64,000 bases of DNA, taken from contig CAJWLO010000004.1 in NCBI GenBank assembly GCA_913043235.1, positions 18,351 to 82,350 on the forward strand, written 5' to 3'. The stretch is from an uncultured Fidelibacterota bacterium (lineage in GTDB: Bacteria; Fidelibacterota; Marinisomatia; Marinisomatales; UBA1611). Both the position numbers and the translations under genes were made by a program. The notes below the pieces were generated by a model that saw only the letters and a program-made list of their open reading frames with translations, was not told the origin of the DNA and did no database searches. Below are positions 39,494 to 58,871 of the stretch, one piece after another (within the stretch, counting starts at the first letter, position 1; every line of letters starts with the position of its first letter).

Positions 39494-40566
39494 TGGAACA
39501 CGTAATAATCGGACTCAGTGGTGGTGTTGATAGTGCCGTGGCAGCCGCTCAAATTGTTCAACAAGGTTATAGCGCTGAAGGGTTATTCATGAAAAACTGG
39601 GAAGAAGATTCCCATTATTGCACATCAGAAGAAGATTACAAAGATGCCCTTCAAATCTGTGAATTACTTGGTATACCATTACGGTCTGTTAATTTTTCCA
39701 AAGAATATTGGGATAAGGTTTTTAAACATTTCCTAAATGAATATAAGCTTGGCCGCACTCCAAATCCCGATATCCTCTGCAATACAGAAATTAAATTCAA
39801 AACTTTTCTGGATTATGCAAAGGAAATGGGCGCAGATAAAATTGCCACCGGGCATTACGCACGAATCTTAAGGGACAATAAGTCGCTTAGGTTGGCCAGG
39901 GGTATTGATCAAAACAAAGACCAGAGTTATTTTTTATACAGGCTAAACCAGAAGCAGCTTTCCCAAGCCGTTTTCCCTATCGGTGACAGTGACAAAATGA
40001 CTGTACGCCAAAAAGCAAAGGAACTAGGGTTCCATAATCATTGCAAAAAAGATAGCACTGGAATTTGTTTTATTGGTGAGAGGCATTTTAAGGAATTTTT
40101 ACAGCGCTACCTGCCTGCACAACCGGGAGACATTATTAATGAGGAAGGGAAACACGTAGGTCAGCATGAAGGATTGATGTACTATACCATGGGCCAGCGT
40201 CAAGGTCTAGGAATTGGCGGTGGACACGGGACACTGGAAAAACCATGGTATGTTCTGGATAAAAACATCGAAAAAAATACCCTTATCGTCGGCCAAGGAA
40301 ACGATCACCCTGGTCTTTACCATCGATCATTAAGTTGTTCCCATATTCACTGGATTTCAGGGAAAATACCAGAATCAAAACTACTTTCTGCAAAAATTCG
40401 CTATCGGGCCCAAGATGCCCCTTGCAAAATTAAAATGACTTCAGAACAATCCATTTCTGTTGTGTTTGAGGAACCTCAATTTGCCATTGCACCTGGACAA
40501 TCAATTGTATTTTATGGGCAGGATATCTGCCTAGGCGGCGCGATTATTGATTCAAGATGGAATTAA
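39493..40566 (+). CDS. mnmA: tRNA-specific 2-thiouridylase
   Basis: GLSGGVDSAVAAAQIVQQGYSAEGLFMKNWEED; NPDILCNTEIKF; GHYARI; CFIGER. Confidence 0.95.
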   Translation: MEHVIIGLSGGVDSAVAAAQIVQQGYSAEGLFMKNWEEDSHYCTSEEDYKDALQICELLGIPLRSVNFSKEYWDKVFKHFLNEYKLGRTPNPDILCNTEIKFKTFLDYAKEMGADKIATGHYARILRDNKSLRLARGIDQNKDQSYFLYRLNQKQLSQAVFPIGDSDKMTVRQKAKELGFHNHCKKDSTGICFIGERHFKEFLQRYLPAQPGDIINEEGKHVGQHEGLMYYTMGQRQGLGIGGGHGTLEKPWYVLDKNIEKNTLIVGQGNDHPGLYHRSLSCSHIHWISGKIPESKLLSAKIRYRAQDAPCKIKMTSEQSISVVFEEPQFAIAPGQSIVFYGQDICLGGAIIDSRWN

Positions 40567-40634
40567 AAAATTTAAGAAAATGATTGTTCTTCTTTATTTT
40601 GGAACAAAGTCTTCCGTATTAAATTTGTTTATAT

Positions 40635-41159
40635 ATGAACACCTTAAATAAACAGATTCTTCAATTATTCATTTGTTCAAGCCTTCTTTTAGGCCAATTC
40701 AGAAATGATATACCAGTAAAATCATTACCTTCAAACCTGAATGGAGAATTGAGCAACATACAGGGATTGTCCTTATTTGACCCTGCTCGTTTTGATATCC
40801 AGCACGGCTTCACTATGAGCATGGCAAGTCTAGGCGGGCGTTCTTTTTCCATGACAGGATATACAAGTCATATCAGCTATTGGGCCTCAGATAACCTAGC
40901 GCTGAATGCAAAAATTATGCTATTTAATACTATGGAACCCTTTGCAAGAGAAAATGTGGGCGGCATGCAAAACCTTCAGTTAGCTTATGACGCCGGCATC
41001 ACTTTCAGGCCCACTGAGAATTCATTTCTTAGGTTTGAACTACGATCACATAATAGTCCTTATTACCAAAATAGCAACTATAACTTAAATCGGTTAGGTC
41101 ACTCACCTAATCAAAGGAATTCTTTTTATTTTTCCCCTGGACCAAGGATCCAGGATTAA
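40635..41159 (+). CDS. hypothetical exported protein
   Basis: ORF with signal peptide; beta-rich. Confidence 0.55.
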   Translation: MNTLNKQILQLFICSSLLLGQFRNDIPVKSLPSNLNGELSNIQGLSLFDPARFDIQHGFTMSMASLGGRSFSMTGYTSHISYWASDNLALNAKIMLFNTMEPFARENVGGMQNLQLAYDAGITFRPTENSFLRFELRSHNSPYYQNSNYNLNRLGHSPNQRNSFYFSPGPRIQD

Positions 41160-41711
41160 GTGCCTGGAAAAAAACGGAAATCAGGGAAACAGCTCAAGAA
41201 AAAGCTTCAATCTCAAAATATGACTCTCAATGGAGCTATCGGTATCGTAGGGGTATTACTTATTGGTTTCATTATCTCTTTTTCCCGCAATGCATCTCAC
41301 AGTGGCATTCCAGTTGAGGTTACCTTTCCAGAAATAGAGAATCAACCAAAACTGGCAGTGGAGATATTTAAAAAAAACCCAATCCAGGATATTAAAATAG
41401 AAGTACTAAACGGATGTGGAATTCAGGGATTGGCAGCAAAAACAGCTGAATTTCTTCGTTTGAAACAATTGGATGTAGTACGATCCGATGATGCAGATCA
41501 TCACAATTATCCCAAAACAGTAATTATACAACGCAATGAGAATATAGAAAGCCTAAAACACGTTTCTAATTCTTTTGGAGTTTTAATGAATGATGAATCC
41601 AGGATAAAAATTGTACCCGATGAAACTCTGGGAGTGGATGTAACTATTATCCTGGGCAAGGATTATGAATCATTCCCCGAGTTCAATAGTTTTCTTTCTT
41701 CCAAACCATAA
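41160..41711 (+). CDS. LytR C-terminal domain-like membrane protein
   Basis: N-terminal TM; IKIEVLNGCGIQGLAAKTAEFLRLKQLDVVRSDDAD; GTG start directly after upstream stop. Confidence 0.75.
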   Translation: MPGKKRKSGKQLKKKLQSQNMTLNGAIGIVGVLLIGFIISFSRNASHSGIPVEVTFPEIENQPKLAVEIFKKNPIQDIKIEVLNGCGIQGLAAKTAEFLRLKQLDVVRSDDADHHNYPKTVIIQRNENIESLKHVSNSFGVLMNDESRIKIVPDETLGVDVTIILGKDYESFPEFNSFLSSKP

Positions 41712-42095
41712 TTGACAAAAAAGTCGCCAGGATCCAAAACAAAGACTCCGCTATTAGATCACATTGCTGAATTGGCACTGGAAAAAAAAGCAGCCAATGT
41801 GATTAGCTTAGATGTTCGCGGTTTATCATCGATTACGAATCACTACTTAATCTGTTCAGCAGATACAGAACCTCAGGTAAAGGCCATTGCAGATAACATC
41901 CGTAGAGGAACACCGGATAAACCTTGGCACTTGGAAGGATATGAAAAATTAAAATGGGTTCTTTTAGATTATGTGGACTTAGTTGTACATGTTTTCAGAT
42001 CGGAAGAGCGGTATTACTACAATTTAGAAAAACTATGGGCTGATGCCCCAATAATAGAATTCTCTGATGAAAATACTGAAAAAACAACTGACTGA
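41712..42095 (+). CDS. rsfS: ribosome silencing factor
   Basis: ALEKKAANVISLDVRGLSSITNHYLICSADTEPQVKAIADNI ... WVLLDYVDLVVHVFRSEERYYYNLEKLWADAP; TTG start. Confidence 0.92.
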   Translation: MTKKSPGSKTKTPLLDHIAELALEKKAANVISLDVRGLSSITNHYLICSADTEPQVKAIADNIRRGTPDKPWHLEGYEKLKWVLLDYVDLVVHVFRSEERYYYNLEKLWADAPIIEFSDENTEKTTD

Positions 42096-43701
42096 TGGTA
42101 TCCAAAAAGCTCTGGAATCTCTAACGTATCCCGAAAAGGATTTTTCATTAGCGCCACCCAATAATCCTGACTTTGGAAATATATCCAGTAATATAGCACT
42201 ATTATTAGCGAATGATTTAAAAACGTCTCCCCTTGAAATTGCAAATGCGATTGCCAATGAACTACAAACCACTGTTCAGGATCATATCGAGTCTATCACT
42301 GTTACCCCACCGGGATTTATTAATTTTTTCATTCAAAACTCTTTCTTCCAATCCTCTATCAAATCAATACATAAAGCAGGGAATAATTATGGTAAAGGGA
42401 TTATAGGCCATAACAAAACTGCTAATGTAGAATTTGTAAGTGCTAACCCCACCGGGCCCTTAACAGTCGGGCATGGACGAAATGCCGTTCTGGGAGATTC
42501 TATTGCCAATATATTGGAGTGGAATGGCTATAAAATAACACGAGAGTATTATTATAATGATGCCGGTCGCCAGATGCTCATTCTAGGGCAATCTGTTGAA
42601 GCGCGTTATTTAGAACTATGTGGCCGAAAATCCAATTTCCCAGATGAGGGTTATCAGGGGGAATACATCAAGGAAATTGCCGCTCAAATCTTAGATCGTC
42701 GTGGAGTCGAACTGCAATCCGGGTCACATTATTTTAAAGATGATGCTGAAAAAGAAATTTTTTCTGATATAAAAAATATCCTCGAAAAACTCAGAATTCA
42801 GTTTGATTATTTTGCCAACGAAAAAACATTTTATGAAAATGGGGCGATTGATCAATTTATATTAGAACTAAAGGAAAAAGACCTGGTTTACGAAAAAGAT
42901 GGAGCCACCTGGTTTCGGGCTACCGCTCTTGGAAAAGAAAAAGACAGGGTTTATATTAAAACCAGCGGTGAACCAACATATAGGGTGCCGGATACAGCCT
43001 ACCATCGGGACAAACTGGAACGAAAGTTTGATCTTATTGTAGATATTTTTGGTGCAGACCATGCCGACAGCTATCCGGATGTCCTTCTTGCACTTCAAGC
43101 ACTGGGTATTGATACCAGCCCTATAAAAGTTTTGCTTTATCAATTTGTAACCCTAATGAGGGACGGTGAAAAAGTAAAAATGTCAACCCGTAAGGCTAAT
43201 TTTGTTACTCTCGATGAACTGATAAATGACCTGGGACCCGATGTGGTACGGTATTTTTTCATCATGCGAAGTATGAATACTCATCTTGATTTTGACCTGG
43301 GTCTCGCAGCCGACCAGTCTGAAAATAATCCCGTATTTTATCTGCAATATGCCCATGCCCGAATCTGCAATATTATCAAGCACGGGTTGGAAAAAGGAAT
43401 TAAAAAAACAAGTGCTTTCAAGGATGATCTTCTCATCCATGAAGATGAATTAAACTTGATCCGGCACATGGTTCGTTTTCCAGAACTCATTGAAACTGCC
43501 CATGATTCCCTGGAACCACAAAATATTGCCAATTACCTTCAGGAACTTGCAGCCTATTTCCACCGTTTTTATGGTCAATGTCGGGTAATCACAGAAAATA
43601 AAGAATTATCCAAGGCGAGACTCGGACTTGTAAGCGCTGTTAAAATTATCCTGGCCAACGGCCTATCTATCTTGGGTATTACAGCGCCGGAACGCATGTA
43701 A
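42067..43701 (+). CDS. argS: arginyl-tRNA synthetase
   Basis: VEFVSANPTGPLTVGHGRNAVLGDSIANIL; KMSTRKANFVTLDELI. Confidence 0.94.
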   Translation: MKILKKQLTDGIQKALESLTYPEKDFSLAPPNNPDFGNISSNIALLLANDLKTSPLEIANAIANELQTTVQDHIESITVTPPGFINFFIQNSFFQSSIKSIHKAGNNYGKGIIGHNKTANVEFVSANPTGPLTVGHGRNAVLGDSIANILEWNGYKITREYYYNDAGRQMLILGQSVEARYLELCGRKSNFPDEGYQGEYIKEIAAQILDRRGVELQSGSHYFKDDAEKEIFSDIKNILEKLRIQFDYFANEKTFYENGAIDQFILELKEKDLVYEKDGATWFRATALGKEKDRVYIKTSGEPTYRVPDTAYHRDKLERKFDLIVDIFGADHADSYPDVLLALQALGIDTSPIKVLLYQFVTLMRDGEKVKMSTRKANFVTLDELINDLGPDVVRYFFIMRSMNTHLDFDLGLAADQSENNPVFYLQYAHARICNIIKHGLEKGIKKTSAFKDDLLIHEDELNLIRHMVRFPELIETAHDSLEPQNIANYLQELAAYFHRFYGQCRVITENKELSKARLGLVSAVKIILANGLSILGITAPERM

Positions 43702-44351
43702 TGAATACCTTCTTGCAAACCGAATTTCAGTTTTTCATCCTTTGTCTTACAACATTGTTTACACTGATCAATCCAATAGGTATTGCTCCTATCCTGGTGA
43801 TTATGATCGAACGCTTTTCCAAGCCAGAACGAATTACTATTGCAAAACAAGGGACAATAACTGCTTGTCTCATACTAATTATTTTTGCCTTTCTGGGTTC
43901 GCTTATCTTTAATTTTTTCGCAATTACTATCGAAGCATTTCAAATCATGGGTGGTATAATATTTTTTCGGAGCGGATTTAAAATGATGGATGCAAAAGTG
44001 GGACGCTCCCGCACTACACCTCTGGAAGAAACCGAATCACAGGAAAGCGATGATATTGCCATTAGTCCTATTGGTATCCCTCTTATTGCCGGACCCGGAG
44101 CGATTACCGCAACTATGCTCCTGTCCAGTAAGGTACCAAATGTTCATAGCTATATCTCAATTGGATTGGCAATCCTTTTGGTACTATCCATGGTGTATCT
44201 GATATTAAGAAATGGTGACCTGATGATCAATGCCCTAGGGGTTAAAGGCATGAGGGTAATCCAGCGTCTCATGGGTCTCATTTTGATGGTAATTGCGGTG
44301 CAGTTTGTGATCAACGGGGTAACCACAGTGCTCCAGCAGATATTAACTTAA
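43701..44351 (+). CDS. MarC-family integral membrane protein
   Basis: FTLINPIGIAPILVIM, PLIAGPGAITATMLLSS, multiple TMs. Confidence 0.88.
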   Translation: MNTFLQTEFQFFILCLTTLFTLINPIGIAPILVIMIERFSKPERITIAKQGTITACLILIIFAFLGSLIFNFFAITIEAFQIMGGIIFFRSGFKMMDAKVGRSRTTPLEETESQESDDIAISPIGIPLIAGPGAITATMLLSSKVPNVHSYISIGLAILLVLSMVYLILRNGDLMINALGVKGMRVIQRLMGLILMVIAVQFVINGVTTVLQQILT

Positions 44352-44352: not shown

Positions 44353-47300
44353 CTATTTCAACAATAACATTTTCTGTATGCGGGCTTCTTCTCCCGCCTG
44401 TAGACGAATAAAATAGACACCGGAACTCACTGGTTTCAAGGTAGCATCTCTACCATACCAGGTGAACTGATGTTTGCCTGGTTTCATGATATTTTGATCA
44501 ATAGTCTTAATGGTTCGACCCATCAGATCATAGATACGAATGGAGATAGGACTGGCTTTTGGCAAATCATACTTAATGACCGTTTGAGCGTTGAATGGAT
44601 TTGGATAATTAGCGTGAACTGTAAATTTTTCTGGATATAGTTCCATGGAAATGCTCTCCATTCCCGAAATGATCACCTCTTTATTTTCATTCATGAATCT
44701 GTATTGTATCTTGGCATTGAAATATTCATCGTTTGTACTGGGCAACTGAATAGTGATTGCTGTATCCAATCCTATATGGTCTGCCATAGAAAACAATTTT
44801 ATTTGTGAGACTGTGTCTTGCGCAGTAAATAAAAATGTGCCTGGTTTCTGATCACGCATTTGAAAACGGGCCAGATCCAAGTTGGTTTCACCTATCAGAA
44901 TCTCACCCATTTTCAGCCCGGATGGTTGGTAAAATTTCAAAGTGCGCCCGATGACCTTAAGATTTTGGAATCCCCAGATCCGTGCTGCCAAAAGAGTGGT
45001 ATCAAAATCAAGATCATGGTAGCGCCACTGCCACATCTTGGCAAAAGCTTTCAGGTCTTCCATATCCGCCTGATTGTCGGGTTGAGGACGCACGTGAGGA
45101 GGTTCTCCTAAATAGGGCCCCAGATCCGTATCGGGCCAGTTACTGTTAAAGGCCAAGATATCCGCCACTGTGATATCATAATCATTGTCCATATCACCCC
45201 ATAAGCGACTGAAAAATTGTAGCGTATCAGCTACATAAAGGGTGTTGATTGCAAAAGCACTATCAATAAATACAGTTATAGTATCGTAACTGGACAAGGT
45301 GTCCTGCCATAAGATGGAAATGATTGAGTCAGCATAGGTGTTTGTGGACATAAATTGTGTATCCACATTAGAATTAACAGCTAACTTATAGGAATAGATC
45401 GGTCGGTTAAATTTTATGGTGATGGTATCCCCTTTTAGGACTGATAAAAACCCTGATGAATCATTCACATCCGGAGTAAAACTTGTAATAAATGGTTCTG
45501 TATTATCAAAATAAACACCATCTGTTCGTGGAATAAAGGATACATTGGTCGCTAAATCCACAGCTCGGATATAAGTAAAATATAATGTATCCTGCACGAG
45601 GCTTAGGTTGCGGATGGTAATGCTGTCGGTACTATCCGTAGAAAACCAGTTCAAGATATTGGTGGTATCGTTCCCGGTGCCAATGGCCAACTGATAATAA
45701 TCTATTTCTGTATTATCAGAAAAACCAGACCAAGTATACTTCAAGGATGTAGAATCCGGGGTATAATCCGCATCCATGATCCACTGTCCATCTACAATGA
45801 ATCCAGTATCGGGTCTTGCCAGATCAATATATATCCCGTCTCCCCAGAGGGTATCTGAATGATTCCCGGCAGAATCTTCAACAAAAACCCCTATAAAATA
45901 ATCATTATCATTGGCCAGACTAAGACTACCAAGCCCTTTTTTATTCTCACCGCCTGAAGAACTCCAAGCCACAATATCAGTCACAACCGAATCTGAACCC
46001 AAGCTTACAAAACCATCCCGGATCCCAGAAAAGCCATCTTCATGGTCCCAGTATACCCATAATGAATCTGATTGATTAGAATAATCCAGGTCCAGTGAAT
46101 CTGTGCCCACCAATAGTGCCGACAGAATTGGTTCTGTTTTATCCAGTATTATACCTACACCATTGGAAGTTGTGGAAATTGTATCTCCAAAATTTCCTGC
46201 TGTATCCCGGTAGGTAATGGCAAAAGTTTGTTGACCTTCTGGATCATTATCTATGAATTCCCGGGTTGCAGTCCAATTCATCCCTAAATTAGACGAAACA
46301 AGACTAAGTGTATCCGCATTCAAGATGGAAACCGGGTTTTTTAAGCCCTCACTGCTTGTAAAACTCAAATTCCCCTGATCTCCTCGCTTTGTCCAATAGG
46401 AACCAAATTCATTATTGGACGTTAGCAATACATCTGAAAGATCAGGTGCTGTTTCATCAATATGGATCAGAGTCTCATGTGCTGTTCCGGTGGTAGTATT
46501 CCCTGCCCGATCCAAGATTTGAGCCGTAAACTGTACATCTGCACCTTCTGCATAGCCATCCAAAGCCACGAATATTCCCCGGCTCATATCAATATTCAAC
46601 ATCCCGGATGATGTAATGGTCACAGCGTGTCCTGCGTTTATAAAAGGACCATTATTAATGCTGGTCTGCAGTTGACAGATTCCATCAATGAGGCTTTCAT
46701 CGTCTTGTGCAATAGGAACTGATACTATTACTGTATCATTGCTGGAATTCCAGTAATTCTGCTCAATCGTTCCGCCTTTGGAAAATACGGTATCAATACT
46801 GAAATCAGCGGGTGGAGATTGGTCAAATAATACATATCCGCTGTTTGTTCCGTGGGTTGTATCAATCGGAACACCCGAGTTACCAACCCAGTCCTCAAAT
46901 ATAATTGTATACGATAAATATCCCTCCTCCTCTGCTCCAGTCATTTCATAATTAGCTAGAAATGATCCGTTTTGATCTACAATTTCTGCAGACGGATTGC
47001 CAGCGATTGTTATTATGGGGTCAGGCCGCAGTAGCTCGCTGGGCGTATATTCAACAAATATGGTGTCTCCTGTAATACACAGCGAGGTATCGTTGGCGTT
47101 ACTGCTGTAAAATAATATATTTAAGCAAGTCGGTACCGTACGGTCGAATCGTACCTGCGAACCGTCATTTGTAGTTGTCACTGTCCCCGACTCGTTTCCG
47201 GCTGAATCAGTCATGAACAGGCTAAATGGTACCCAGCCCTCCGTTTCTGATCCGTCAAAGGTATGGGTGGTCAAAAAATCCAGTACAGATTGTGCTGGTA

Positions 47301-50300
47301 TCTTATTGGCACCTGCCAGAGAAACAGCTAAACTGCGACTTGCTTCCGATATGGAGAAAGTCAGGGTATCTGTATCACCTGTTTTTGCCAGAGAATCGCC
47401 ATAAACATTATTTGATCTCATGGAAACTGTAGAGATTACTGGAGGTGTTTTATCAAAACAGACCTGGCTACCATTGGTAGTGGTATCCGCATCTGGTCCG
47501 GTCAATCCCCCCAAATCAGCATAGGAAACGGTAAATGGAATGCATTGTTCATCATTACTCTCTGACATAACAATGTATCCCATATAAGTTGTACTAGATG
47601 GATTTGACACAATTGAGTTACTACCATCAATGATTATCGTACAATTATTCAGTGGTTCATTAGCTGTGAATTGAACGAATACCGTGTCACCCACCTTGGC
47701 CCAGGAAGAATCCGTATTGCTGGAATATATTCCTGTGGAAACGACTTCCGGTGGACCGGTATCATGATTGACAAAACTCTCATCCGTGGGTGAAATCACC
47801 TGTACGCCTGGATTCCCGGCACGATCTACAAAATCAATCGTGTATGAAAGTATCCCTGAAGGTTCTGTGCCATCGAGGGTGATGGTTGCAGTATATGTAT
47901 CCCCCGATAGAGTTGGCACTGATACCTGACCCGAAATCGTAACCGTGATTGAATCAGAAATTATCGGCTCGGCAGGAGTGAAAGATAGATAAACTTCGTC
48001 TCCTCCAATTGCGATGACGGTGTTATTGGCATTATTTGATTCTATATGCACCAATGTTAACGTGGGTGCTGTTTTATCAAAAATTACTTGGCTCATGTTG
48101 GTTGTATTTGCGACCGTATCACTGACCAGACCAACCGAATCTGTGACCAGGATCTCAAAATTAATAATCCCCTCATCGTTATCCGAGTCTGCCATGACAT
48201 ATCGGCCAGAATATTGTTCGCTGCCCAGATCAGTCACTTCTGCTGTTTGGGTTGCAATTGTAACTGTCTGGTTGGTTAACAATTCAGCACCTGTAAAAAT
48301 TACTGTTACTGTATCACCAACTTTTGCCCAGGCAGGATCAAGATTAGATGAAATGATAGTAACCGGATCTAATGTGGGTTTTGTATTGTCAAAGGTTACC
48401 ACCGTATTATCTGTGGTTTGGGTAAAACCATCAGCCGGGTTACCTCGTAGATCCACCAGACCGTTGATAGTAAATGCAATGACACCTTCCGCATCGCCAT
48501 CCTGCATGGTGTAGGTTCCTGCCCAGGAAGAGTCACCACTGACACTTGCCACAGAACCAGCGTTTCCAGAAACAGTAATGGTAGGTACTTGCAGTAGTGG
48601 TTCAGTGGTAAAGGTAATCGTAATTATATGACCCACTGCGGCCAGAGTTGTATCTGAAAAATTTGAGGCATAGGATACCGTATTTACAACCGGCAGAACT
48701 TGATCGATCACCAGCCGATCTGAACTGATACTCCCTTCAGTCTCATTTCCCGGCCTATCGGTTATTACTGCTTTAATGTAAATACTGTCTTCTTCCGCGA
48801 AGCCTGCCAGGGCTTCCACTTCCCCGGCTGATAGAGACATCAATTTATCTGAACCAAGCTCTGAACTGGTGATGTTAGAAGCATTGCCAATGGCTGTAAA
48901 AGCATTATTGCCAGCCTTGGCCCGCAACTGTACTGTTCCATTTTCCAGAGTAGTATCATTAGCAACGATCGGTATATTTACATTAAGACCTGTATTTGTG
49001 GAATTCCAAGAATTTTCCACCACATTACCCCCAGTAGATACAATAGCACCAACAGTAAAATCAGTGGGTGGTGTTCTGTCAAAGGTCACCTTACTGGAAT
49101 TGGTGGTGCCGACCACATTTGTGCCATTGTTCCCTGCTGAATCTGTGAACGCTATTTCAAATGCAACTATTCCTTCTGGGTCTGTATCGGTAAAAGCATA
49201 GATGGATTTGAATTGACTGGTATTTATATTAGTAGTCGTAGCGGACTGGGTAACAACCGTAACAGTGTTGTTGATAAGTGCTTCACTGACTGTGGCAGAG
49301 ATCGTCACCGTATCACCAACTTTGGCCCATTCTGTATCTGAGTTATTAGAGATAATAGAAACCGGCGATAATTCAGGTAACGTTCTGTCATAACGTACCG
49401 TTGAAGAACCTGCACCTACCGCACCGCCATTGTAGGTGCCGGGATTGCCTAAATAATCATTTGTGCTGATAGCAATATAATTAATATTTCCTTCGGTTTC
49501 TGACCCCGAAAACGTATATGTCGCTTCAAATTGTTCACCTCCCAGATCGGTCTCATCAGCAGCATTGCCACCTACGGTGACTGCAGGCAGGTCAACATCT
49601 TCATCATATGTAAGGGCAATGGTTATCACATCACCGGTTTTTGCCAGGTGTGGAAATGTATTGTTTGAAGTGATGGACACAGGATTTGGATTGTTCGCCT
49701 GCAGGTCGATAGCAGTATTTGTCGTACTGGTATCCCCAAGGGAGAAATTTCCCGCAACGTCAAATAGCAATGCGGATAACTGAGCTGTATCCCCGTGTGC
49801 AAAACCTGTCAACGCTTCAAAAACACTTTCTGGCGCAGTAACAACCTTTGTCCCAGAATTAAAATCAGCAGTAGTAATAGTATCTTTTTCTCCGAATGGG
49901 GCAAAATCATTTGTCCCGATTCTCCCGCGAAGCTGATAGGCAGACCCAACAATGACCCCAGTATCATAGATAGGTGTTTGAAATTCAATTGGTGAATCTA
50001 GTGTGGACCAGCTAGCGCCATTGATTGTGGCATGGTTCGCTGTTGCAGTAGAATCTGCAGTGGAAGGACCAGAACCCTCATCTATTCTCCAATAACCAAT
50101 AAGTCCCGCTTCCTCTCCAGTTAAATTAATCTCCCGCGATGCCTTTATTTGATCTTTGGTACGTACCACATTCCACAGGCGTACTTCATCAATACCTCCT
50201 TGAAAAAAATGACCAGTTCCATCCTTAGGAAAATTCCCCAAAACCATTTCTGCTGGGGCACCAGACCATTTTACGTCTCCCATAGCATCTGCAGAATCAA

Positions 50301-51624
50301 CCAATGCACCATTACGGTATAATTTTACTTCGGAACCATCGTAGGTAGCAGCGATATGGCTCCATTGCCCCACAGGCATTTGTGATCCCGCCATACTACC
50401 GTAATTAATTTGGTTGGTAGTAGTTTTCAGGAAAAATCTCCAGCCGGTTAAATAGAATGAGAAACCGAAACCAGCTTGGGTACCACCAGCATCCATGGCA
50501 TAGCTTAAAAAACCATCATAATCAACAGGAGCTACCTCAGGCTTGACCCATGATTCGATTGTAATAGCATTGGTTACTTGATATGCGGCCAACCCTGGGA
50601 TCGAAACTTCATCATTGCTGCCATCAAACTGCAAACTATTGCCTTGATAATAATTAAAACTTGCCACCGCTGAATCCTGCGGAACATTTACTTCTAACCC
50701 AATAGCTGTATTGGTGCTGTTCCAGATGTTTGGCGCTACCGTCCCGCCGGTACTGGTTACAGCGCCGACCGTAAAAGAAGGCGGGTCAGAGTTATCAACT
50801 ATTACTTTGCTGTTATCAGTGGTCTGTTTTACGGTTTTACCATCAATCCCATTAGAACCCGTGAAATCAATCGTAAACTGAATTGGTCCATCGGGATCAG
50901 AATTTTCTACCGTATACGAAGCAACCCAGTTCGTACCACTCGTATTACTTACACTACAAGCATTGCCATTGATCTGTACATAAGGATCCCCGGAAAAATC
51001 TGAATTTGCTGTAAAATTCAGTGAAACATCCGTTCCAGCAGTAGCAGAGGTAGGATCTTCATTTGAAGATTCAATAGTAACACTGGTTAACTTAGGCAGT
51101 GCATAAAATTTAATATTATCTACAATCCAGCCATCAATAGCCCATGAGTTTGTACCATAAGCTGTCCAGCGAACCTGTAGGTTGCTACCATTAGAAATAT
51201 CTGCCGTAAATGATTCTGTACTGGTCCAAGGATTATTTTGTATTGTCAGACCGGGGCCAATGGCATAGCTCAATACATCAATCCAGCCAGCACCCCCGTT
51301 ATAGGAAATCCGCAATCCATTCAAATCGCCTTGACCATAAAAATCCAATGCAAAATAAAATTCGACAAGTACACCAGTATTATCCCCTACATCTATTAAT
51401 GGAGTGGTTGCACTTTGTTCAAAATTATACGCCTGAGGAGACCAGTTAAAAAGTGCAGCTGGTGGTGTATCATTACCTTCATAGCTGCTACTAACTTCCC
51501 AGTTCCCTTCGTGGAGCCATCCTGCAGGCCAACTCCCTCCACTAAAATTTTCTTCATACAAAATTTGGCCTGATATAAATGCAGGTAACCATACAGACAG
51601 AAACAATAAAAAATTCTTTTTCAT
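44353..51624 (-). CDS. giant exported multi-Ig-like repeat protein with LamG, dockerin-like and C-terminal sorting domains
   Basis: 2423 aa; signal peptide; tandem units VSIxSNNxDxxWAKVGDTVxxxFTxxEPL...VxFDKTPP; LamG-like insert; DMDNDYDITVADILAF; C-term ANYPNPFNAQTVIKYDLPKASPISIRIYDLMGRTIKT...GVYFIRLQAG. Confidence 0.9.
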   Translation of the reverse strand: MKKNFLLFLSVWLPAFISGQILYEENFSGGSWPAGWLHEGNWEVSSSYEGNDTPPAALFNWSPQAYNFEQSATTPLIDVGDNTGVLVEFYFALDFYGQGDLNGLRISYNGGAGWIDVLSYAIGPGLTIQNNPWTSTESFTADISNGSNLQVRWTAYGTNSWAIDGWIVDNIKFYALPKLTSVTIESSNEDPTSATAGTDVSLNFTANSDFSGDPYVQINGNACSVSNTSGTNWVASYTVENSDPDGPIQFTIDFTGSNGIDGKTVKQTTDNSKVIVDNSDPPSFTVGAVTSTGGTVAPNIWNSTNTAIGLEVNVPQDSAVASFNYYQGNSLQFDGSNDEVSIPGLAAYQVTNAITIESWVKPEVAPVDYDGFLSYAMDAGGTQAGFGFSFYLTGWRFFLKTTTNQINYGSMAGSQMPVGQWSHIAATYDGSEVKLYRNGALVDSADAMGDVKWSGAPAEMVLGNFPKDGTGHFFQGGIDEVRLWNVVRTKDQIKASREINLTGEEAGLIGYWRIDEGSGPSTADSTATANHATINGASWSTLDSPIEFQTPIYDTGVIVGSAYQLRGRIGTNDFAPFGEKDTITTADFNSGTKVVTAPESVFEALTGFAHGDTAQLSALLFDVAGNFSLGDTSTTNTAIDLQANNPNPVSITSNNTFPHLAKTGDVITIALTYDEDVDLPAVTVGGNAADETDLGGEQFEATYTFSGSETEGNINYIAISTNDYLGNPGTYNGGAVGAGSSTVRYDRTLPELSPVSIISNNSDTEWAKVGDTVTISATVSEALINNTVTVVTQSATTTNINTSQFKSIYAFTDTDPEGIVAFEIAFTDSAGNNGTNVVGTTNSSKVTFDRTPPTDFTVGAIVSTGGNVVENSWNSTNTGLNVNIPIVANDTTLENGTVQLRAKAGNNAFTAIGNASNITSSELGSDKLMSLSAGEVEALAGFAEEDSIYIKAVITDRPGNETEGSISSDRLVIDQVLPVVNTVSYASNFSDTTLAAVGHIITITFTTEPLLQVPTITVSGNAGSVASVSGDSSWAGTYTMQDGDAEGVIAFTINGLVDLRGNPADGFTQTTDNTVVTFDNTKPTLDPVTIISSNLDPAWAKVGDTVTVIFTGAELLTNQTVTIATQTAEVTDLGSEQYSGRYVMADSDNDEGIINFEILVTDSVGLVSDTVANTTNMSQVIFDKTAPTLTLVHIESNNANNTVIAIGGDEVYLSFTPAEPIISDSITVTISGQVSVPTLSGDTYTATITLDGTEPSGILSYTIDFVDRAGNPGVQVISPTDESFVNHDTGPPEVVSTGIYSSNTDSSWAKVGDTVFVQFTANEPLNNCTIIIDGSNSIVSNPSSTTYMGYIVMSESNDEQCIPFTVSYADLGGLTGPDADTTTNGSQVCFDKTPPVISTVSMRSNNVYGDSLAKTGDTDTLTFSISEASRSLAVSLAGANKIPAQSVLDFLTTHTFDGSETEGWVPFSLFMTDSAGNESGTVTTTNDGSQVRFDRTVPTCLNILFYSSNANDTSLCITGDTIFVEYTPSELLRPDPIITIAGNPSAEIVDQNGSFLANYEMTGAEEEGYLSYTIIFEDWVGNSGVPIDTTHGTNSGYVLFDQSPPADFSIDTVFSKGGTIEQNYWNSSNDTVIVSVPIAQDDESLIDGICQLQTSINNGPFINAGHAVTITSSGMLNIDMSRGIFVALDGYAEGADVQFTAQILDRAGNTTTGTAHETLIHIDETAPDLSDVLLTSNNEFGSYWTKRGDQGNLSFTSSEGLKNPVSILNADTLSLVSSNLGMNWTATREFIDNDPEGQQTFAITYRDTAGNFGDTISTTSNGVGIILDKTEPILSALLVGTDSLDLDYSNQSDSLWVYWDHEDGFSGIRDGFVSLGSDSVVTDIVAWSSSGGENKKGLGSLSLANDNDYFIGVFVEDSAGNHSDTLWGDGIYIDLARPDTGFIVDGQWIMDADYTPDSTSLKYTWSGFSDNTEIDYYQLAIGTGNDTTNILNWFSTDSTDSITIRNLSLVQDTLYFTYIRAVDLATNVSFIPRTDGVYFDNTEPFITSFTPDVNDSSGFLSVLKGDTITIKFNRPIYSYKLAVNSNVDTQFMSTNTYADSIISILWQDTLSSYDTITVFIDSAFAINTLYVADTLQFFSRLWGDMDNDYDITVADILAFNSNWPDTDLGPYLGEPPHVRPQPDNQADMEDLKAFAKMWQWRYHDLDFDTTLLAARIWGFQNLKVIGRTLKFYQPSGLKMGEILIGETNLDLARFQMRDQKPGTFLFTAQDTVSQIKLFSMADHIGLDTAITIQLPSTNDEYFNAKIQYRFMNENKEVIISGMESISMELYPEKFTVHANYPNPFNAQTVIKYDLPKASPISIRIYDLMGRTIKTIDQNIMKPGKHQFTWYGRDATLKPVSSGVYFIRLQAGEEARIQKMLLLK

Positions 51625-52175
51625 TGAATAACAACCTCTGCTGTACGCTCACCATTTAGTCCAATAATATGGTCAGCGTTATCAATGATCTGACAGTTTT
51701 CCAGATCATACTTAATCGTTGTTGTACCAGTGGAAAGAGGTTGAAAAATAATATCTGCCAAGTGGCCAGTACCTTCGATACTAATCTTCAACGTATCCAG
51801 GAAATAGGCAAATAGCTCTATATTCCCAGGTGCATCATTGTTGTATACAAATAGTGGATTTGCTCTACTGGTATCAGTAATAAATAGACCCGGTTTTAGA
51901 GTATCCAACTCCAGAACTTCTGCATCATAATTGATTACCACCTGTACCCCTGTAAAAGGTGCAGTAGAATCGGATTTGAATACAATAAATGATTCCACCT
52001 TAACAGAATCATTTATTGTTTTTTCTTGGGTTTTGGGATAAAAAACTAGGGAAGGCAGAGCAGTAGCGTAATCCGCTTCATGATCAACGGGATTATCAAG
52101 TTCCTTTTTGTGAATCGTACAGGACCAGAAAAAAAGCCCCAACATGAAGATAGAATAGAGGAAGAATTTTTTCAT
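51621..52175 (-). CDS. cohesin-like domain lipoprotein
   Basis: Lipobox LFFWSC; VESFIVFKSDSTAPFTGVQVVINYDAEVLELDTLKPGLFITD...GNIELFAYFLDTLKISIEGTGHLADIIFQPLSTGTTTIKY follows the cohesin pattern. ATGA overlap with the dockerin-bearing gene. Confidence 0.75.
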   Translation of the reverse strand: MKKFFLYSIFMLGLFFWSCTIHKKELDNPVDHEADYATALPSLVFYPKTQEKTINDSVKVESFIVFKSDSTAPFTGVQVVINYDAEVLELDTLKPGLFITDTSRANPLFVYNNDAPGNIELFAYFLDTLKISIEGTGHLADIIFQPLSTGTTTIKYDLENCQIIDNADHIIGLNGERTAEVVIQ

Positions 52176-52178: not shown

Positions 52179-53081
52179 TCATTCCACATTTACCGTTCTA
52201 GTACTATCCCATTCCCGATATATTTCTTGGAAAGGTCTGGGACCTACTATCCAAGCATGGACACTATTAGACAGCCAGACAGTTCCAGTCATAGATGCAA
52301 AAGCAATCATTAGATTATTATAGCGTACATGCTTGGCATGTTCAGTAATAGCAAGCGCTCTATATCGGGCTATCTCTTTCTCATCATCTGTACTATTGTA
52401 ATCTTTCTGATACTGTAGAAAATTCTTGGAAGCCGTATTATAGTTTAGAAAACTAAGCAAAATACCAACACTTAAAGATGATTCCAATCCTGCCCAGAAT
52501 GCTGCAGAAAGTTTTTTCCCCGAGTACATTTGGCCCCAACCGGGTACAGCCAAGCTACGCATGGCAGCACCCATAGGTGTTTTTTCATAGGTTATATTAT
52601 CTGGATCCAAAAAAAGAATAGATTCCCTGTTTTCAATCCACCCTGGATAAACAATATTCATAATCTCTCCAACCCACAGGTTTAGCTCATTCATCTGTCC
52701 TTTAGTGTAATCGAGTAAATCGAGTTTACGCCGTAGGATGAGCCCGCCGGAGCGGGTGCTGAAAATCTGACCTTCCAGGTAAAACCGTTCATCCTGATTA
52801 CGAATTTGATTATAAATGATATAATCAACGTCATATTCGTTCCCCACCATCTTGACCAGACCCATCCTACTGGCAGCCGGGTATTGCTCCACATCTAGAT
52901 CTGTAATCAATTTTTCTATGGGTTCCCTGAATTGAAACTCTGATCCGCTAAAATTTTCTTCAAGAGTAGAACTTAATTCAGGGATTTGGTTTTCAAACTG
53001 GTTCAACATCAAGATCGTCTTACCCTGATCTCCTGCTAGCAATGTTTGTGACATAAGGGCCACAAGGAACAATTTTTTCAT
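52179..53081 (-). CDS. hypothetical membrane protein (DUF5683-like C-terminus)
   Basis: Signal peptide; AMRSLAVPGWGQMYSGKKLSAAFWAGLESSLSVGILLSF. Confidence 0.65.
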   Translation of the reverse strand: MKKLFLVALMSQTLLAGDQGKTILMLNQFENQIPELSSTLEENFSGSEFQFREPIEKLITDLDVEQYPAASRMGLVKMVGNEYDVDYIIYNQIRNQDERFYLEGQIFSTRSGGLILRRKLDLLDYTKGQMNELNLWVGEIMNIVYPGWIENRESILFLDPDNITYEKTPMGAAMRSLAVPGWGQMYSGKKLSAAFWAGLESSLSVGILLSFLNYNTASKNFLQYQKDYNSTDDEKEIARYRALAITEHAKHVRYNNLMIAFASMTGTVWLSNSVHAWIVGPRPFQEIYREWDSTRTVNVE

Positions 53082-53083: not shown

Positions 53084-53569
53084 TCAGCCAGACAATTTTT
53101 TCTTAAGAAAATATTTGAAGTGTTTTGGTTGGTCAGCCAGGATAGTCTGTTCATCTACGATCTTGTCCTTTTTGTATACACGGAGAAGATGCTCTCCTGC
53201 CTCCAATTCTATGCGGATCTTTTTGTCACTCCACTGGTGTTCTTTATTCAATTCGAAAGTTAATCCTTCTTCCTCAGTTGTGAATTTTATTTTATAAATG
53301 GGATTTAAGTAAAAATCCAGGTTGACTGCTTTTGCTGGATTCACTATAAGAGAATAGGTCAGAGATGCGTAGCCTTTTTTAGTAAGTTCAAAGTCATGGT
53401 GTCCAGGAGAAATTTCCTGACCTAGAATGGGGGTTTCCCCAATGGGGACACCGTCCAAAAAAACTTCCACTTGTCGGGGAATGGCATTGACATTGAGCTT
53501 CACCTGGGCATGCAGAAAATTTCCAGGAAGAACCAGAAAACACAAAATGATTTTATTCAATGGATTCAT
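53084..53569 (-). CDS. PEGA-domain exported protein
   Basis: VKLNVNAIPRQVEVFLDGVPIGETPILGQEISPGHHDFELTKKGYASLTYSL. Confidence 0.8.
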   Translation of the reverse strand: MNPLNKIILCFLVLPGNFLHAQVKLNVNAIPRQVEVFLDGVPIGETPILGQEISPGHHDFELTKKGYASLTYSLIVNPAKAVNLDFYLNPIYKIKFTTEEEGLTFELNKEHQWSDKKIRIELEAGEHLLRVYKKDKIVDEQTILADQPKHFKYFLKKKLSG

Positions 53570-54590
53570 TATTATTACCTTTAGAAAAAATATTTTCCAG
53601 TTGCATAAGAGACAGGTCTTCTTTTACAATCCAGCCATCAAAAACAACCAGTTTCCCATTTTGGAGCAATACTTCAATATCCCCAAAATATTCCCCCCTA
53701 GTAGTCCGTTTCACAGATACAGATTCTCCTTTATCAAGAAGAAATTTGGTTTCGGAGCCCACGTCCGGTTTTTCCCTAAAATGAACATATTTTTTATTGG
53801 TCAAATAAATAGGCTCTTCCAGTGTTTTACTGGGCCCAATGTTCACATTCTGATATATTCCTTTGGTATTACTATAATCCAGTTTCTGCCGAAAAGGCTT
53901 AAAAATCAGGTTGGTTCCAGCTACCAATTCAATATTTGGTGATTTCATAAATTCACCAGGTATACCCATTTCAAATATACCATTTTCATCCGATTTTGTC
54001 GTAGCCAAAGTAGCCGGGAATACTTGGACGGAAAGATCCACGCCGGCTAGAACACTATCGTTCTGGGCCAACGTGACAACTCCCTGTACGAGTAATGGTT
54101 TAAAATCTACTGCTTTCTCCGGTAGGTCAATGCGGCCGGCTCCCAAGCCTTTGAAAGGAATGTAGAAAGTCCGGAAATCATAATCCTGAGGCATAACCTT
54201 GATCAGATTCGTGGAATCTTCCACATCGAGGACTCCATGGGGTAGAAATAGAACTATCTCATCCAAAGGACCCTGCATAACAGAGATCAGGGGAAATGTT
54301 GTATCCCCCCCGGCATAAACCTGAAAAGCAATTTGTTCCGGTCGGTACCGAGGGTAAAATAGAGGCAGGTGTATTTCTATCTCACCGTAATCGTAAGTGA
54401 CCGAAATCAGGGGCTGCCGATCATTATAAATAACATCGGTGTACCGAGGTATAATAAACATGGAACAACCACTTGCAAAAATAGAAAGCAGTATAATTGC
54501 CATGTAGCTGGAGTCTTTTATTTTCTTTAAAATTTTCATTCCATGGAATTTAGGGTAGGTTGGACCATTATTACCCAGACAGATCAACAA
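53553..54590 (-). CDS. exported protein with CarboxypepD_reg-like and SH3-like regions
   Basis: VQGVVTLAQNDSVLAGVDLSVQVFPATLATTKSDENGIFEM; VHFREKPDVGSETKFLLDKGESVSVKRTTRGEYFGDIEVLLQNGKLVVFDGWI. Overlaps the PEGA gene. Confidence 0.65.
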   Translation of the reverse strand: MLICLGNNGPTYPKFHGMKILKKIKDSSYMAIILLSIFASGCSMFIIPRYTDVIYNDRQPLISVTYDYGEIEIHLPLFYPRYRPEQIAFQVYAGGDTTFPLISVMQGPLDEIVLFLPHGVLDVEDSTNLIKVMPQDYDFRTFYIPFKGLGAGRIDLPEKAVDFKPLLVQGVVTLAQNDSVLAGVDLSVQVFPATLATTKSDENGIFEMGIPGEFMKSPNIELVAGTNLIFKPFRQKLDYSNTKGIYQNVNIGPSKTLEEPIYLTNKKYVHFREKPDVGSETKFLLDKGESVSVKRTTRGEYFGDIEVLLQNGKLVVFDGWIVKEDLSLMQLENIFSKGNNNESIE

Positions 54591-54800: not shown

Positions 54801-55349
54801 GTGATGACAGACACAGAGCAATATCTCTTGGAAAAAGTTAAAGGCGGAGATAAATCCGCTTTCCAGAAACTTTTTTATAACTATCATGACTCCCTATTCC
54901 GGTTTGTAGCCTACCGGGTCAAGGACGAAGACTTGGCTGATGATATTACTCAGGAAACGTTTCTTCGGGTCTGGAAAACACGCAGTTCCATGCAACCAAA
55001 AAAGTCATTCTTTTCCCTAATAGCCCGCATCAGTTCCAATCTCTGTTACGATCATTTCCGCCACGTGGAGGTCCGCCATCGGCATGAAGATTCTATACCA
55101 GATTATGGTGGGTTCGATACCCTTGAACCGGAGATGATAAACCAGGGACAGGCATTCCAAAAGGAAATCCAGCGGGTGGTAAATAAAAAACTCCCTGACA
55201 AATGTCGCAATATTTTTATCCTCAGCCGTATCGAAGGAAAATCAAATTTGGAAATTGCAAAACTTCTGGACCTCAGCATTCGCACTGTAGAAAACCAGAT
55301 CTACCGGGCCATAAAAATTCTAAAAAATAATCTAACCAATTATCTGTGA
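54801..55349 (+). CDS. ECF-type RNA polymerase sigma factor
   Basis: AFQKLFYNYHDSLFRFVAYRVKDEDLADDITQETFLRVWKTRSSM; IFILSRIEGKSNLEIAKLLDLSIRTVENQIYRAIKILKNNL. Confidence 0.92.
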   Translation: MMTDTEQYLLEKVKGGDKSAFQKLFYNYHDSLFRFVAYRVKDEDLADDITQETFLRVWKTRSSMQPKKSFFSLIARISSNLCYDHFRHVEVRHRHEDSIPDYGGFDTLEPEMINQGQAFQKEIQRVVNKKLPDKCRNIFILSRIEGKSNLEIAKLLDLSIRTVENQIYRAIKILKNNLTNYL

Positions 55350-56269
55350 GTATTTTTTACAAAAAAGACGTTAATATCCTACAAATGCGAAAATTGAACA
55401 AAATTGAAAAACTGATCTGGGAAAAAAGTGTTATTGCTGACCTACCCCGGACACCTGAAGTTGATGACGCCTGGATGCGACTCGAGCAGCGAATGGTCAT
55501 TGCAGATACAGATCCTGACATTAACAAAAACCAAGACCAACTATTTTCTTCAACTCCAATACTGAGATGGAAGCCCCGTCTAGCAAGCATTGTTTCCATG
55601 ACTCTTGTCACATTGGTTTTTCTGCCCATTGTTTATCAGATCTTCACCACAGAATCAATACTTACCCAGACCGGTAAAACTGAAACTGTAATTCTCAAGG
55701 ACGGGTCATCTGTGACTCTCAATTCTGGAAGTGAACTTAAATACAAAACAGATTTTAATAGTGATCATCGCAATATTACCCTAAGCGGTGAAGCTTTCTT
55801 TGAGGTTCAGCCAGGCCTTTATCCTTTTGTAATTCACACAGATCATGGCGAGGTGAAAGTTTTGGGAACAACATTTAACGTTCATGTGCGACCTTACCGA
55901 TTTGAAGTGGGCGTAAATAAAGGAATTGTTCAGATTTCCAATCAAGCTAAGTCCATCATTCTAACCCATGGTCAAAGGATAGATATTAAACCTTCAGATA
56001 CACACCTTGGTCCAGCAATTGAAGCTTATCGTAACTATCCAGACTGGATCCATAATAAAATAGTTTGTGAGCAAGCACCCTTATGGGAAGTTTGCGATGA
56101 GATTAAGCGGATATTTGATATTTCTTTTACCTTTTCTGATCCATCTCTTGCAGATGTAACCGTTACAGGTGTACTGGATGCGAGTGATTTAAATTCAGTA
56201 TTGAGCACTATTTCCCTATTGACTCAGCATGAGTTTAAATTTGATGGTGAAACGTGCACGATCCTCTAG
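55346..56269 (+). CDS. FecR-family anti-sigma/regulator
   Basis: TGKTETVILKDGSSVTLNSGSELKYKTDFNSDHRNITLSGEAFFEVQPGLYPFVIHTDHGEVKVLGTTFNVHV; GTG start overlapping sigma-factor stop. Confidence 0.9.
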   Translation: MSIFYKKDVNILQMRKLNKIEKLIWEKSVIADLPRTPEVDDAWMRLEQRMVIADTDPDINKNQDQLFSSTPILRWKPRLASIVSMTLVTLVFLPIVYQIFTTESILTQTGKTETVILKDGSSVTLNSGSELKYKTDFNSDHRNITLSGEAFFEVQPGLYPFVIHTDHGEVKVLGTTFNVHVRPYRFEVGVNKGIVQISNQAKSIILTHGQRIDIKPSDTHLGPAIEAYRNYPDWIHNKIVCEQAPLWEVCDEIKRIFDISFTFSDPSLADVTVTGVLDASDLNSVLSTISLLTQHEFKFDGETCTIL

Positions 56270-58871
56270 TTTAACCCTATTAAAATTTTCCTTATTTTTC
56301 CAGCTGGCCATATGTTGTCAGCTGACAGCTCAGACGCAGGATTCCATTTCATTCTCATTTGATAGACTCCCACTAAAGGATGTCCTACAGGAAATGAATG
56401 AAATCCATAGAATCCCAGTTATTTTTCCTGATGAGGCAGTGCGGGACATCCTTATTACTACCAGTTGCAGTTCATGCTCACCCATCGATGCTTTGGATAG
56501 AGTATTATCAAAAACAAATCTAGTGTGGAAACAAACGGGTACACAATTCACAGTATTCAAAACCGGAAAACCCCATCAGTTCAGTTTATCGGGGTTTGTA
56601 ACTGACCTGGAGACCGGGGAAACAATTCCTCATGCCAACATATATATTCCCGATGTAGGTATAGGTGATATTTCTAGTCCCGATGGAGCTTTTTCCCTTG
56701 TCAATATCCCTACAAAATCCTGTTCGCTTTCCGTTTCTTACATAGGGTATAAGACCACCAAAGTTGAGTTGAATTTTCCCAGGGATGAATATAATCTGTT
56801 GAAGGTAAATTTGCAGCCGAGGGTTATTTCAACAGCAGGAGTCTGGATCACAGCAGAAAACCGGGAATTCATGGATCGGTCTGATGCACCAGGGAAAATT
56901 TCTTTTTCTCCCCGGCATATAACTACTCTTCCTAATCTGGGTGAGGTGGATATTTTCAGATCCCTGCAGCTACTCCCCGGTATTCAATTTGGATTGGGAG
57001 GGACTTCTGATCTTTATATCCGCGGCGGTACTCCAGACCAAAATCTCATTCTTCTTGACGGGATGTCTATTTATCATAGGGGACACTTATTCGGGTTTGT
57101 AAGCGGGATCAACGCCAATACCATCAAGGATATCCAGGTTTACAAAGGAGGTTTTCCCGCACAATTTGGGGGTCGAATTTCAAGCGTGATTGAATTAACA
57201 AGCAGGAATGGAAACAGCCTGCGACCCCGTGGGTCATTTTATGGAAATTTAATGAGCCAAGGATTTTCCATTGAACTACCTATTGTAAACCGTGGAAACT
57301 GGATATTGAATATGAGAAGGTCCACCGTTTCCAATTATCAAGCAGAATTATATAATTCTATTCAAAATTTCATCACCGGAGATAATCAGTTTGACCTAAT
57401 TGGAGAAAGTGCTGACACTTCAAAAAGTCAAACTGCTTCCTATTCCCCAAATTTTTCCTACATCGACCTTAATAGCAGATTTACCTATCTGCTTTCACCA
57501 AAAAATAAAATCAGTATCACAATATCTGCCGGGAAAGATTCTATTCGAGAAACACGAAAATTTTACGGATTTGAAAGTACATTTGGATATGATACTTCTA
57601 TCACTAAGCAAAAGACGGAATGGATGAATAATGGCATAAGTTTGAATTGGAACACTTATTGGAATCATGTTTTGGATTCAAAAATGACGATTTCGGATTA
57701 TACTTATAAAAGTAATTATGAATCAGGTCAAACAAAGATTGTAAACCAAGAACCTATTCGAATAGGTTCCTCCAACGAAAAAAATAATGTTCATGATAAG
57801 ACATTTAATCTTCATGGTAGTTATAAAGGATTTAATAAACATAAAATTGCATCAGGTATTGAAAGTTCATATTATGATATTCAATTCCTAGATGAAAAAA
57901 AAGATGAAACTTCCGATTCAACTTATCAATTCATCCAATCCAGTTATTTACATTCATTCTATATCCAAGATAAATATACAGCTTTACATAATTGCATTAT
58001 ACAATCCGGGATAAGAGTTTCCTATTTTTCTGAGCTGTCCAAATTCTTTTCAGCCCCCCGGTTTTCTATCATGAAAAAATTTGATAATGAAATCACCCTT
58101 GAAGGATCCTTAGGACGGCATTACCAGTTTATCCATCAATTCAACAGCAACTATTCTACCCGAGGTACTGATGGCATGTGGCTGCTTTCATCTAATGATA
58201 TTCCAAATATTTCCTCTATAAATTATCATTTAGGATTGAACTGGAAATACAATCATTATAGTATTACCGCAGAATTATATCAAAGAACATCAGAAAATCT
58301 GATTGAATTTCAGAGTTCAGCAACCCCACTTTCAAATAATAGTAAAACAATATTAACAGGGATCGGATATTCAAAAGGGGCTGAATTCTTAATCCGGAAA
58401 AAGAAAGGAAATATTACTGGTTGGTTATCCTACCTGCTGAACAAAACAGTATTTGAATTTCCTGATTTGAATGATGGTAAAATTTTTCCTGGTGATCATG
58501 ATAAAACTCACGAAATAAAATGCGTGCTTATTACCAAATTTGGCAATTGGGATCTAACAGTTAATTGGGTTTATTCATCGGGTCGTGTTTATACACAAAT
58601 AGAAAATATTGATAATTCAAATCAAATCATTTCAATTATTAAAGACCGAAATGATATACGATTAAATCCCATACACCATTTGGATATGAGTATTTCCACC
58701 AAGCGTATCTTATTCACTGCGCGGATTCACACCGGCATTTCAATTTATAATATTTATAATAAAAATAATATTAGTCATAAAAGGTATAATCCTTACACAC
58801 CAGTTCTAACTATTACAGATGTGTCAATGTTTGGGATTACACCAACATTATTCTTAAATATTTCTTTCTAA
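56229..58871 (+). CDS. TonB-dependent receptor with STN, CarboxypepD_reg and plug domains
   Basis: STN FSFDRLPLKDVLQEMNEIHRIPVIF; carboxypeptidase-like VTDLETGETIPHANIYIPDVGIGDISSPDGAFSLVNIP; plug LYIRGGTPDQNLILLDGMSIYH; C-terminal barrel. Confidence 0.88.
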   Translation: MSLNLMVKRARSSSLTLLKFSLFFQLAICCQLTAQTQDSISFSFDRLPLKDVLQEMNEIHRIPVIFPDEAVRDILITTSCSSCSPIDALDRVLSKTNLVWKQTGTQFTVFKTGKPHQFSLSGFVTDLETGETIPHANIYIPDVGIGDISSPDGAFSLVNIPTKSCSLSVSYIGYKTTKVELNFPRDEYNLLKVNLQPRVISTAGVWITAENREFMDRSDAPGKISFSPRHITTLPNLGEVDIFRSLQLLPGIQFGLGGTSDLYIRGGTPDQNLILLDGMSIYHRGHLFGFVSGINANTIKDIQVYKGGFPAQFGGRISSVIELTSRNGNSLRPRGSFYGNLMSQGFSIELPIVNRGNWILNMRRSTVSNYQAELYNSIQNFITGDNQFDLIGESADTSKSQTASYSPNFSYIDLNSRFTYLLSPKNKISITISAGKDSIRETRKFYGFESTFGYDTSITKQKTEWMNNGISLNWNTYWNHVLDSKMTISDYTYKSNYESGQTKIVNQEPIRIGSSNEKNNVHDKTFNLHGSYKGFNKHKIASGIESSYYDIQFLDEKKDETSDSTYQFIQSSYLHSFYIQDKYTALHNCIIQSGIRVSYFSELSKFFSAPRFSIMKKFDNEITLEGSLGRHYQFIHQFNSNYSTRGTDGMWLLSSNDIPNISSINYHLGLNWKYNHYSITAELYQRTSENLIEFQSSATPLSNNSKTILTGIGYSKGAEFLIRKKKGNITGWLSYLLNKTVFEFPDLNDGKIFPGDHDKTHEIKCVLITKFGNWDLTVNWVYSSGRVYTQIENIDNSNQIISIIKDRNDIRLNPIHHLDMSISTKRILFTARIHTGISIYNIYNKNNISHKRYNPYTPVLTITDVSMFGITPTLFLNISF

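Follow-up and report, generated by a model that had tools for sequence, protein, structure and literature searches.

The question raised by this locus is what a cohesin domain, borne on a small lipoprotein, is doing next to a giant exported protein that carries a dockerin-like module. The window is the whole stretch of 64,000 nucleotides that was analysed. We consider it probable, at roughly two chances in three, that the locus is one copy of a Marinimicrobia surface cassette in which the cohesin would tether a giant protein, exported by the type 9 secretion system (T9SS), by its C-terminal dockerin to the outer membrane; this reading is drawn from sequence comparison. The features on which it depends are as follows.

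53553..54590, minus strand: 345-aa frame, first gene of the run; a lipoprotein from an internal start (SIFASGC), recurring in syntenic relatives
53084..53569, minus strand: exported PEGA-domain protein of 161 aa, part of the same run and found at the same place in syntenic relatives
52179..53081, minus strand: third cassette gene, 300 aa, immediately upstream of the cohesin gene; CsgG/LpoB-like N-terminal region and DUF5683 (PF18935)
51621..52175, minus strand: cohesin lipoprotein gene, 184 aa; signal peptide, lipobox FFWSC, Cys19 at about 52119-52121
51693..51998, minus strand: Cohesin domain, residues 60-161 of the lipoprotein (PF00963, AF2 model, PDB fold and profile searches)
44353..51624, minus strand: giant exported protein gene, 2423 aa, overlapping the cohesin gene by ATGA
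50143..50625, minus strand: Laminin_G_3 (concanavalin A-like) domain, residues 334-494 of the giant (PF13385, E 5.5e-27)
45019..45201, minus strand: dockerin-like module of the giant (loop 1, linker, degenerate loop 2, AFAKMWQW)
45160-45195, minus strand: loop 1 of the dockerin-like module, DMDNDYDITVAD
about 45055-45090, minus strand: degenerate loop 2, ending ADMED, preceded by the linker DLGPYLGEPPH
44641..44961, minus strand: beta-sandwich module, lying after the dockerin-like module and before the tail; also conserved in homologues
44368..44607, minus strand: T9SS type A C-terminal sorting domain, residues 2340-2419 of the giant (TIGR04183, PF18962)

The cohesin lipoprotein and the dockerin-like module

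The stop codon of the lipoprotein and the start codon of the giant share the letters ATGA at 51621-51624, and the sequence-only reading had placed both genes and their overlap correctly. Its lipobox FFWSC is also present, with a cysteine that is invariant among 41 homologues and a DNPxD motif conserved C-terminal to it; the region after the cysteine is acid-rich (on average 2.7 acidic against 0.5 basic residues per ten, in the 31 of 41 sequences scored). The cohesin that had been proposed from a pattern in the letters was borne out by the Pfam search, in which the lipoprotein reached 38.4 bits against the PF00963 cut-off of 24.1 (E 1.7e-9) and 36 of the 41 homologues matched at E<=0.1. The AF2 model of the lipoprotein (pLDDT 85.8) was searched by fold against the PDB and matched solved cohesins with a best E of 4e-11 and a target TM of 0.76, the Clostridium perfringens cohesin 2vo8 giving a target TM of 0.81; among the matches listed, which are the best 50, all are cohesins or cohesin-containing complexes, including cellulosome complexes. 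It should be mentioned that the single sequence gave one weak cohesin match in the PDB (E 0.097); the profile search with the 41 homologues was then decisive and returned almost exclusively cohesins, with a best E of 2.3e-11.

The giant carries a signal peptide followed by a long Ig-like repeat region, in which the repeats are visible in the protein sequence; a scan of its gene for tandem DNA repeats found none. Its tail matches TIGR04183 with 36.7 bits against a cut-off of 23. The calcium loop quoted earlier, DMDNDYDITVADILAF, was located at about 45160-45195 and follows the canonical pattern D-x-[ND]-x-[DN]-x2-[ILV]-x3-D in almost every one of 24 distant homologues, with D1, D/N5 and D12 kept in 24/24 and N/D3 in 23/24. 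A chance motif was rejected on this conservation. The second repeat had rightly been called degenerate: ligand positions 1 and 3 are lost, and D/N5 and D12 are each kept in 24/24. Two tryptophans and an LGP..G..P linker are conserved as well, and the beta-sandwich adjoins the module C-terminally in all 24 aligned homologues.

The dockerin claim itself stood in part only. Loop 1, the PDB profile and the fold speak for it; Pfam Dockerin_1 (PF00404) has no match in the window giant at E<1, and the NCBIfam scan was likewise without a dockerin. Pfam Dockerin_1 is blind to the window module because loop 2 has lost positions 1 and 3, and among 21 phylum-wide module members it matches 3, with a best E of 9e-4. 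When the phylum-wide module profile was searched against the PDB, at least 16 of the 18 sequences at E<1 were dockerins or dockerin-bearing enzymes, with modest E values (best 0.0035), and hhalign of this profile with four canonical dockerins of the same genome gave a probability of 87%. The AF2 model of the module has two helices at the expected positions. By this profile and fold evidence the module is probably a dockerin variant that stands outside Dockerin_1, and the loss of two ligand positions from loop 2 could alter its pairing with the cohesin. A scan of the genome collection with a subset of the modules found 19 loci, 18 of them in Marinimicrobia/Neomarinimicrobiota and one in an 'uncultured bacterium'.

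The cassette in the genome and in the phylum

The sequence-only reading had described a two-gene surface-display system. The pairing of lipoprotein and giant in this proposal is supported, in part, by domain identity, fold, co-conservation and co-divergence, and neither of the outcomes that the reading had named as a refutation was seen; the limitation to two genes is not supported, as a third gene and T9SS export have to be added. The sorting tail, this third gene and the paralogous cassettes were all absent from that reading and were found here. The unit is a cassette of a CsgG/LpoB-like and DUF5683 protein, a cohesin lipoprotein, and a giant with dockerin and T9SS tail, in that order, and larger paralogues of the third gene have matches to CsgG, LpoB and DUF5683. 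It occurs in several copies per genome and in several classes of Marinimicrobia (SAR406). The genome of the window has eight cohesin places, and in its six small-cohesin cassettes the DUF5683 gene is followed by the cohesin lipoprotein and then by a large exported protein.

Conservation of the gene pair in related genomes, proposed as a check, was found at most loci. Among 58 distinct small cohesin lipoproteins the DUF5683 gene is directly upstream in 56, and a dockerin giant lies downstream in 39 of the 41 resolvable loci, as the next gene in 37; here 41 is the number of loci whose downstream genes could be traced to a clear result, the other 17 reaching the end of the contig or locus. In other classes the arrangement recurs with different lipoproteins (Ig-like plus cohesin, and PKD-PKD plus cohesin). 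It is also present in genomes of 0.9-1.0 Mb, where no DUF5683 gene was found beside the cohesin lipoprotein.

In one exception, locus L015, a canonical dockerin protein takes the place of the dockerin-variant giant; here (L015:3392-4168 and L015:4194-8865) a truncated cohesin lipoprotein of 113 aa is followed by a canonical two-loop dockerin protein of 1445 aa and then by a PKD plus cohesin lipoprotein. A non-dockerin gene lies directly behind the cohesin in L013, L052, L056 and L058, which weighs against the proposed tether. L013 is not clearly an exception because a dockerin module is present on the same strand about 27 kb further downstream, in a frame of 5845 aa.

Several neighbouring genes were seen in passing. 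An ORF6N/BRO-type DNA-binding-like protein stands directly behind the cohesin, at the expected place of the giant, in L056:1-1343 and in L058, and a similar frame also adjoins the cohesin in L143. Repetitive proteins lie directly behind the cohesin gene in L052:5679-9878 and L014:2-1345; the C-terminus of the one in L052 resembles a tailspike-type self-cleaving chaperone (S74), and a dockerin giant is found further downstream. L150:4558-16018 has one cohesin lipoprotein followed by tandem giants of 2002 and 1806 aa, both with dockerin and T9SS tail.

Around the window cassette, promoter and terminator scans gave results at chance level only. Housekeeping genes on the plus strand (39493-44351; MnmA-like, LytR-like, RsfS-like, ArgS-like and MarC-like) adjoin it, and their recurrence beside the cassettes of L063 and L076 marks the locus in the window as old and syntenic. 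Divergent to the run, on the plus strand, are an ECF sigma factor (54801-55349) and FecR (55346-56269), a pair that also flanks the syntenic cassette in L063 and is not found at that in L076. FecR is followed by an 880-aa protein (56229-58871, plus strand) whose N-terminal start resembles an STN/TonB-receptor protein, and a tmRNA with the tag peptide ADYGYMAAA lies at 58879-59229 on the minus strand.

Export, co-divergence and the competing explanations

The domain identities, the conserved cassette, the co-occurrence, the co-divergence and the presence of T9SS genes were all computed here. Of the T9SS machinery two components were searched, and both SprA (E 4.7e-36) and PorU (E 2.4e-176) are present in the genome of the window, so that T9SS export of the giant is likely; SprA was found in 28 of 31 genomes and PorU scored over the cut-off in 17 of 21. 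The giant, an Ig/LamG-type protein, would use its signal peptide and then pass the outer membrane by the T9SS under guidance of its type A tail. Type A tails are removed at the cell surface during T9SS export, and as the dockerin-like module is placed just before the tail, it would then lie near the mature C-terminus together with the beta module. The cohesin of the co-encoded outer-membrane lipoprotein, presumably facing outwards, would bind this module and hold the giant at the surface, with the repeat region projecting outwards; the giant would probably act as an adhesin or as a coat protein. As a dedicated third component, the CsgG/LpoB-DUF5683 protein may take part in envelope assembly. 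A further point weighs against the tether: type A cargo of Bacteroidota is covalently anchored to A-LPS (PMC9143113), and with such anchoring a second anchor would be redundant.

The two modules go together across genomes. For cohesin and dockerin module in 175 genomes the counts were 74/5/26/70 (Fisher p 1e-20), the 26 being genomes with a dockerin module and no detected cohesin lipoprotein, which speak against the tether, and in 61 relatives they were 44/3/5/9 (p 2e-5); both tests ignore phylogeny and many of the genomes are incomplete. The genome of the window has 105 T9SS tails and only 5 such dockerin modules, of which 3 are directly behind a cohesin lipoprotein (P 5e-4). In 35 complete cassettes the pairwise distances of the cohesin correlate with those of the dockerin module at 0.91, of the beta module at 0.88, of the sorting tail at 0.77 and of the giant N-terminus at 0.62, yet the N-terminus is the part nearest to the cohesin in the DNA and the dockerin module is distant from it. 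The N-termini are often non-homologous, and part of the contrast between 0.91 and 0.62 is domain shuffling within the giants. The cohesin-DUF5683 correlation is 0.92, as high as that of cohesin and dockerin, and the DUF5683 gene therefore belongs to the unit; the co-divergence may reflect inheritance of the cassette. On swapping paralogues within genomes the cohesin-dockerin correlation fell from 0.91 to 0.37, which means that the cassettes keep their own pairs. This retention fits specific pairing and would also be compatible with joint inheritance.

Joint inheritance is at the centre of one rival explanation, in which cohesin and dockerin do not bind: the operon would be ancient and passed on as a whole, with the dockerin-like module packed on its own beta-sandwich neighbour as a structural end-cap. 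Correlated trees can arise from operon inheritance alone, loop 2 is degenerate, and the beta-sandwich that follows the module in the 24 aligned homologues bears a weak fold resemblance to cohesins (Foldseek E 4.6e-4, query TM 0.34) or to Ig domains. However, cohesin divergence tracks the end of the giant that carries the dockerin-like module much more closely than the nearer N-terminus, and the association persists in other classes, where the rest of the lipoprotein has been replaced, and in the genomes of 0.9-1.0 Mb. The beta module is also less conserved than the dockerin-like module that it would cap (mean identity 22% vs 44%). We regard this explanation as improbable.

It is somewhat easier to imagine, and still unlikely, that the lipoprotein points into the periplasm, where it would dock the giant to the inner side of the outer membrane before or during export and act as a chaperone or recruiter for the T9SS instead of a surface anchor. 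The partner gene product, CsgG/LpoB-like with DUF5683 and presumably periplasmic, co-diverges with the cohesin at the r of 0.92 given above, which would suit such a location. But about 100 other T9SS-tailed proteins of the genome are without the module, so that export does not in general depend on a cohesin, and the acid-rich stretch after the lipobox cysteine appears compatible with the signals for surface export in related phyla. It is very improbable that the system is a true enzyme complex of the cellulosome type, in which the lipoprotein would be a minimal scaffoldin for dockerin-bearing hydrolases. In favour of this are the presence of cohesin and dockerin-like modules, the inference of a scaffoldin-type system in Cloacimonadota (PMC8542988) and a weak Pectinesterase/Beta_helix match in one related giant. 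Against it, there is one cohesin per small lipoprotein, scans for catalytic domains were negative for the window giant and for 4 of 5 other giants, and the 5 dockerin modules of the genome are all on large proteins or an open fragment. No glycoside hydrolase family was seen in the giants scanned, as the sequence-only reading had remarked for this locus. A cellulosome was rejected, as neither a multi-cohesin scaffoldin nor dockerin-bearing hydrolases were found.

Parallels in known systems and meaning for the phylum

The anchoring cohesins OlpA, OlpC and SdbA of clostridial cellulosomes pair with type I or II dockerins and have SLH modules. They are the nearest molecular parallel to the tether that we propose, with the same fold and a surface cohesin that captures the C-terminal dockerin of an exported protein. 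The present case differs by a Gram-negative lipid anchor in place of SLH, one cohesin per protein, the lack of a scaffoldin, non-enzymatic giant partners, a variant dockerin and T9SS export. The modules of Clostridium perfringens (PDB 2jh2, 2vo8, 2w1n, 2jnk) are likewise a non-cellulosomal cohesin-dockerin set, and 2vo8 is among the closest folds, but there the cohesin sits on secreted glycoside hydrolases and here on a stand-alone lipoprotein in a conserved operon. Ca. Stygibacter of the Cloacimonadota likewise has cohesin and dockerin proteins alongside T9SS-type C-terminal domains; its inferred system comprises a multi-cohesin scaffoldin of 3755 aa and hydrolases (PMC8542988), in contrast to the single-cohesin lipoproteins and large adhesin-like partners of our cassettes. 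The cohesin and dockerin proteins of ANME archaea (PMC9012536) are similarly non-cellulosomal and extracellular with partners of unknown function, but they are archaeal and include scaffoldin-like proteins with several cohesins, and the available part of that source describes no lipoprotein-T9SS operon of the kind seen here. Non-cellulosomal cohesins and dockerins as such are already known (PMC8542988, PMC9012536).

The nearest functional parallel is provided by SprB-SprF and PG1035-PorP, for which the proposal is that PorP/SprF-like partners hold T9SS type B cargo (PMC9143113), that is, a surface protein exported by the T9SS and held by a specific outer-membrane partner, as is proposed for the giant. 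Those partners are PorP-like beta-barrels acting on a type B tail, whereas here there is a cohesin lipoprotein, and the giant has a type A tail and a dockerin-like module. Type B anchoring of the SprB/SprF kind was rejected for the window on account of the type A tail and of the adjacent cohesin lipoprotein. Our search of the open-access literature found no paper joining cohesin or dockerin with Marinimicrobia and, in the parts of the sources available, no description of a cohesin lipoprotein for T9SS cargo.

The findings suggest that the clasp-and-plug pair of cellulosomes is used to hold non-enzymatic giants on a Gram-negative surface. A broader extension, which we put forward tentatively and at somewhat less than even odds, is that cohesin lipoproteins serve throughout the phylum as outer-membrane receptors for the dockerins of T9SS giants, replacing LPS attachment or working beside it, with the co-evolving CsgG/LpoB-DUF5683 protein as a specific assembly factor and several orthogonal pairs per cell. 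Should this be true, a Gram-negative phylum would have, in cohesin-dockerin docking, a general means of keeping T9SS proteins on its surface, separate from the A-LPS and PorP/SprF routes, and new natural cohesin-dockerin pairs with a one-loop dockerin would be at hand. The retention of the cassette in genomes of only 0.9-1.0 Mb suggests that it is important to the cell, and for an abundant and mostly uncultured marine phylum it would offer a testable pathway of surface-protein assembly.
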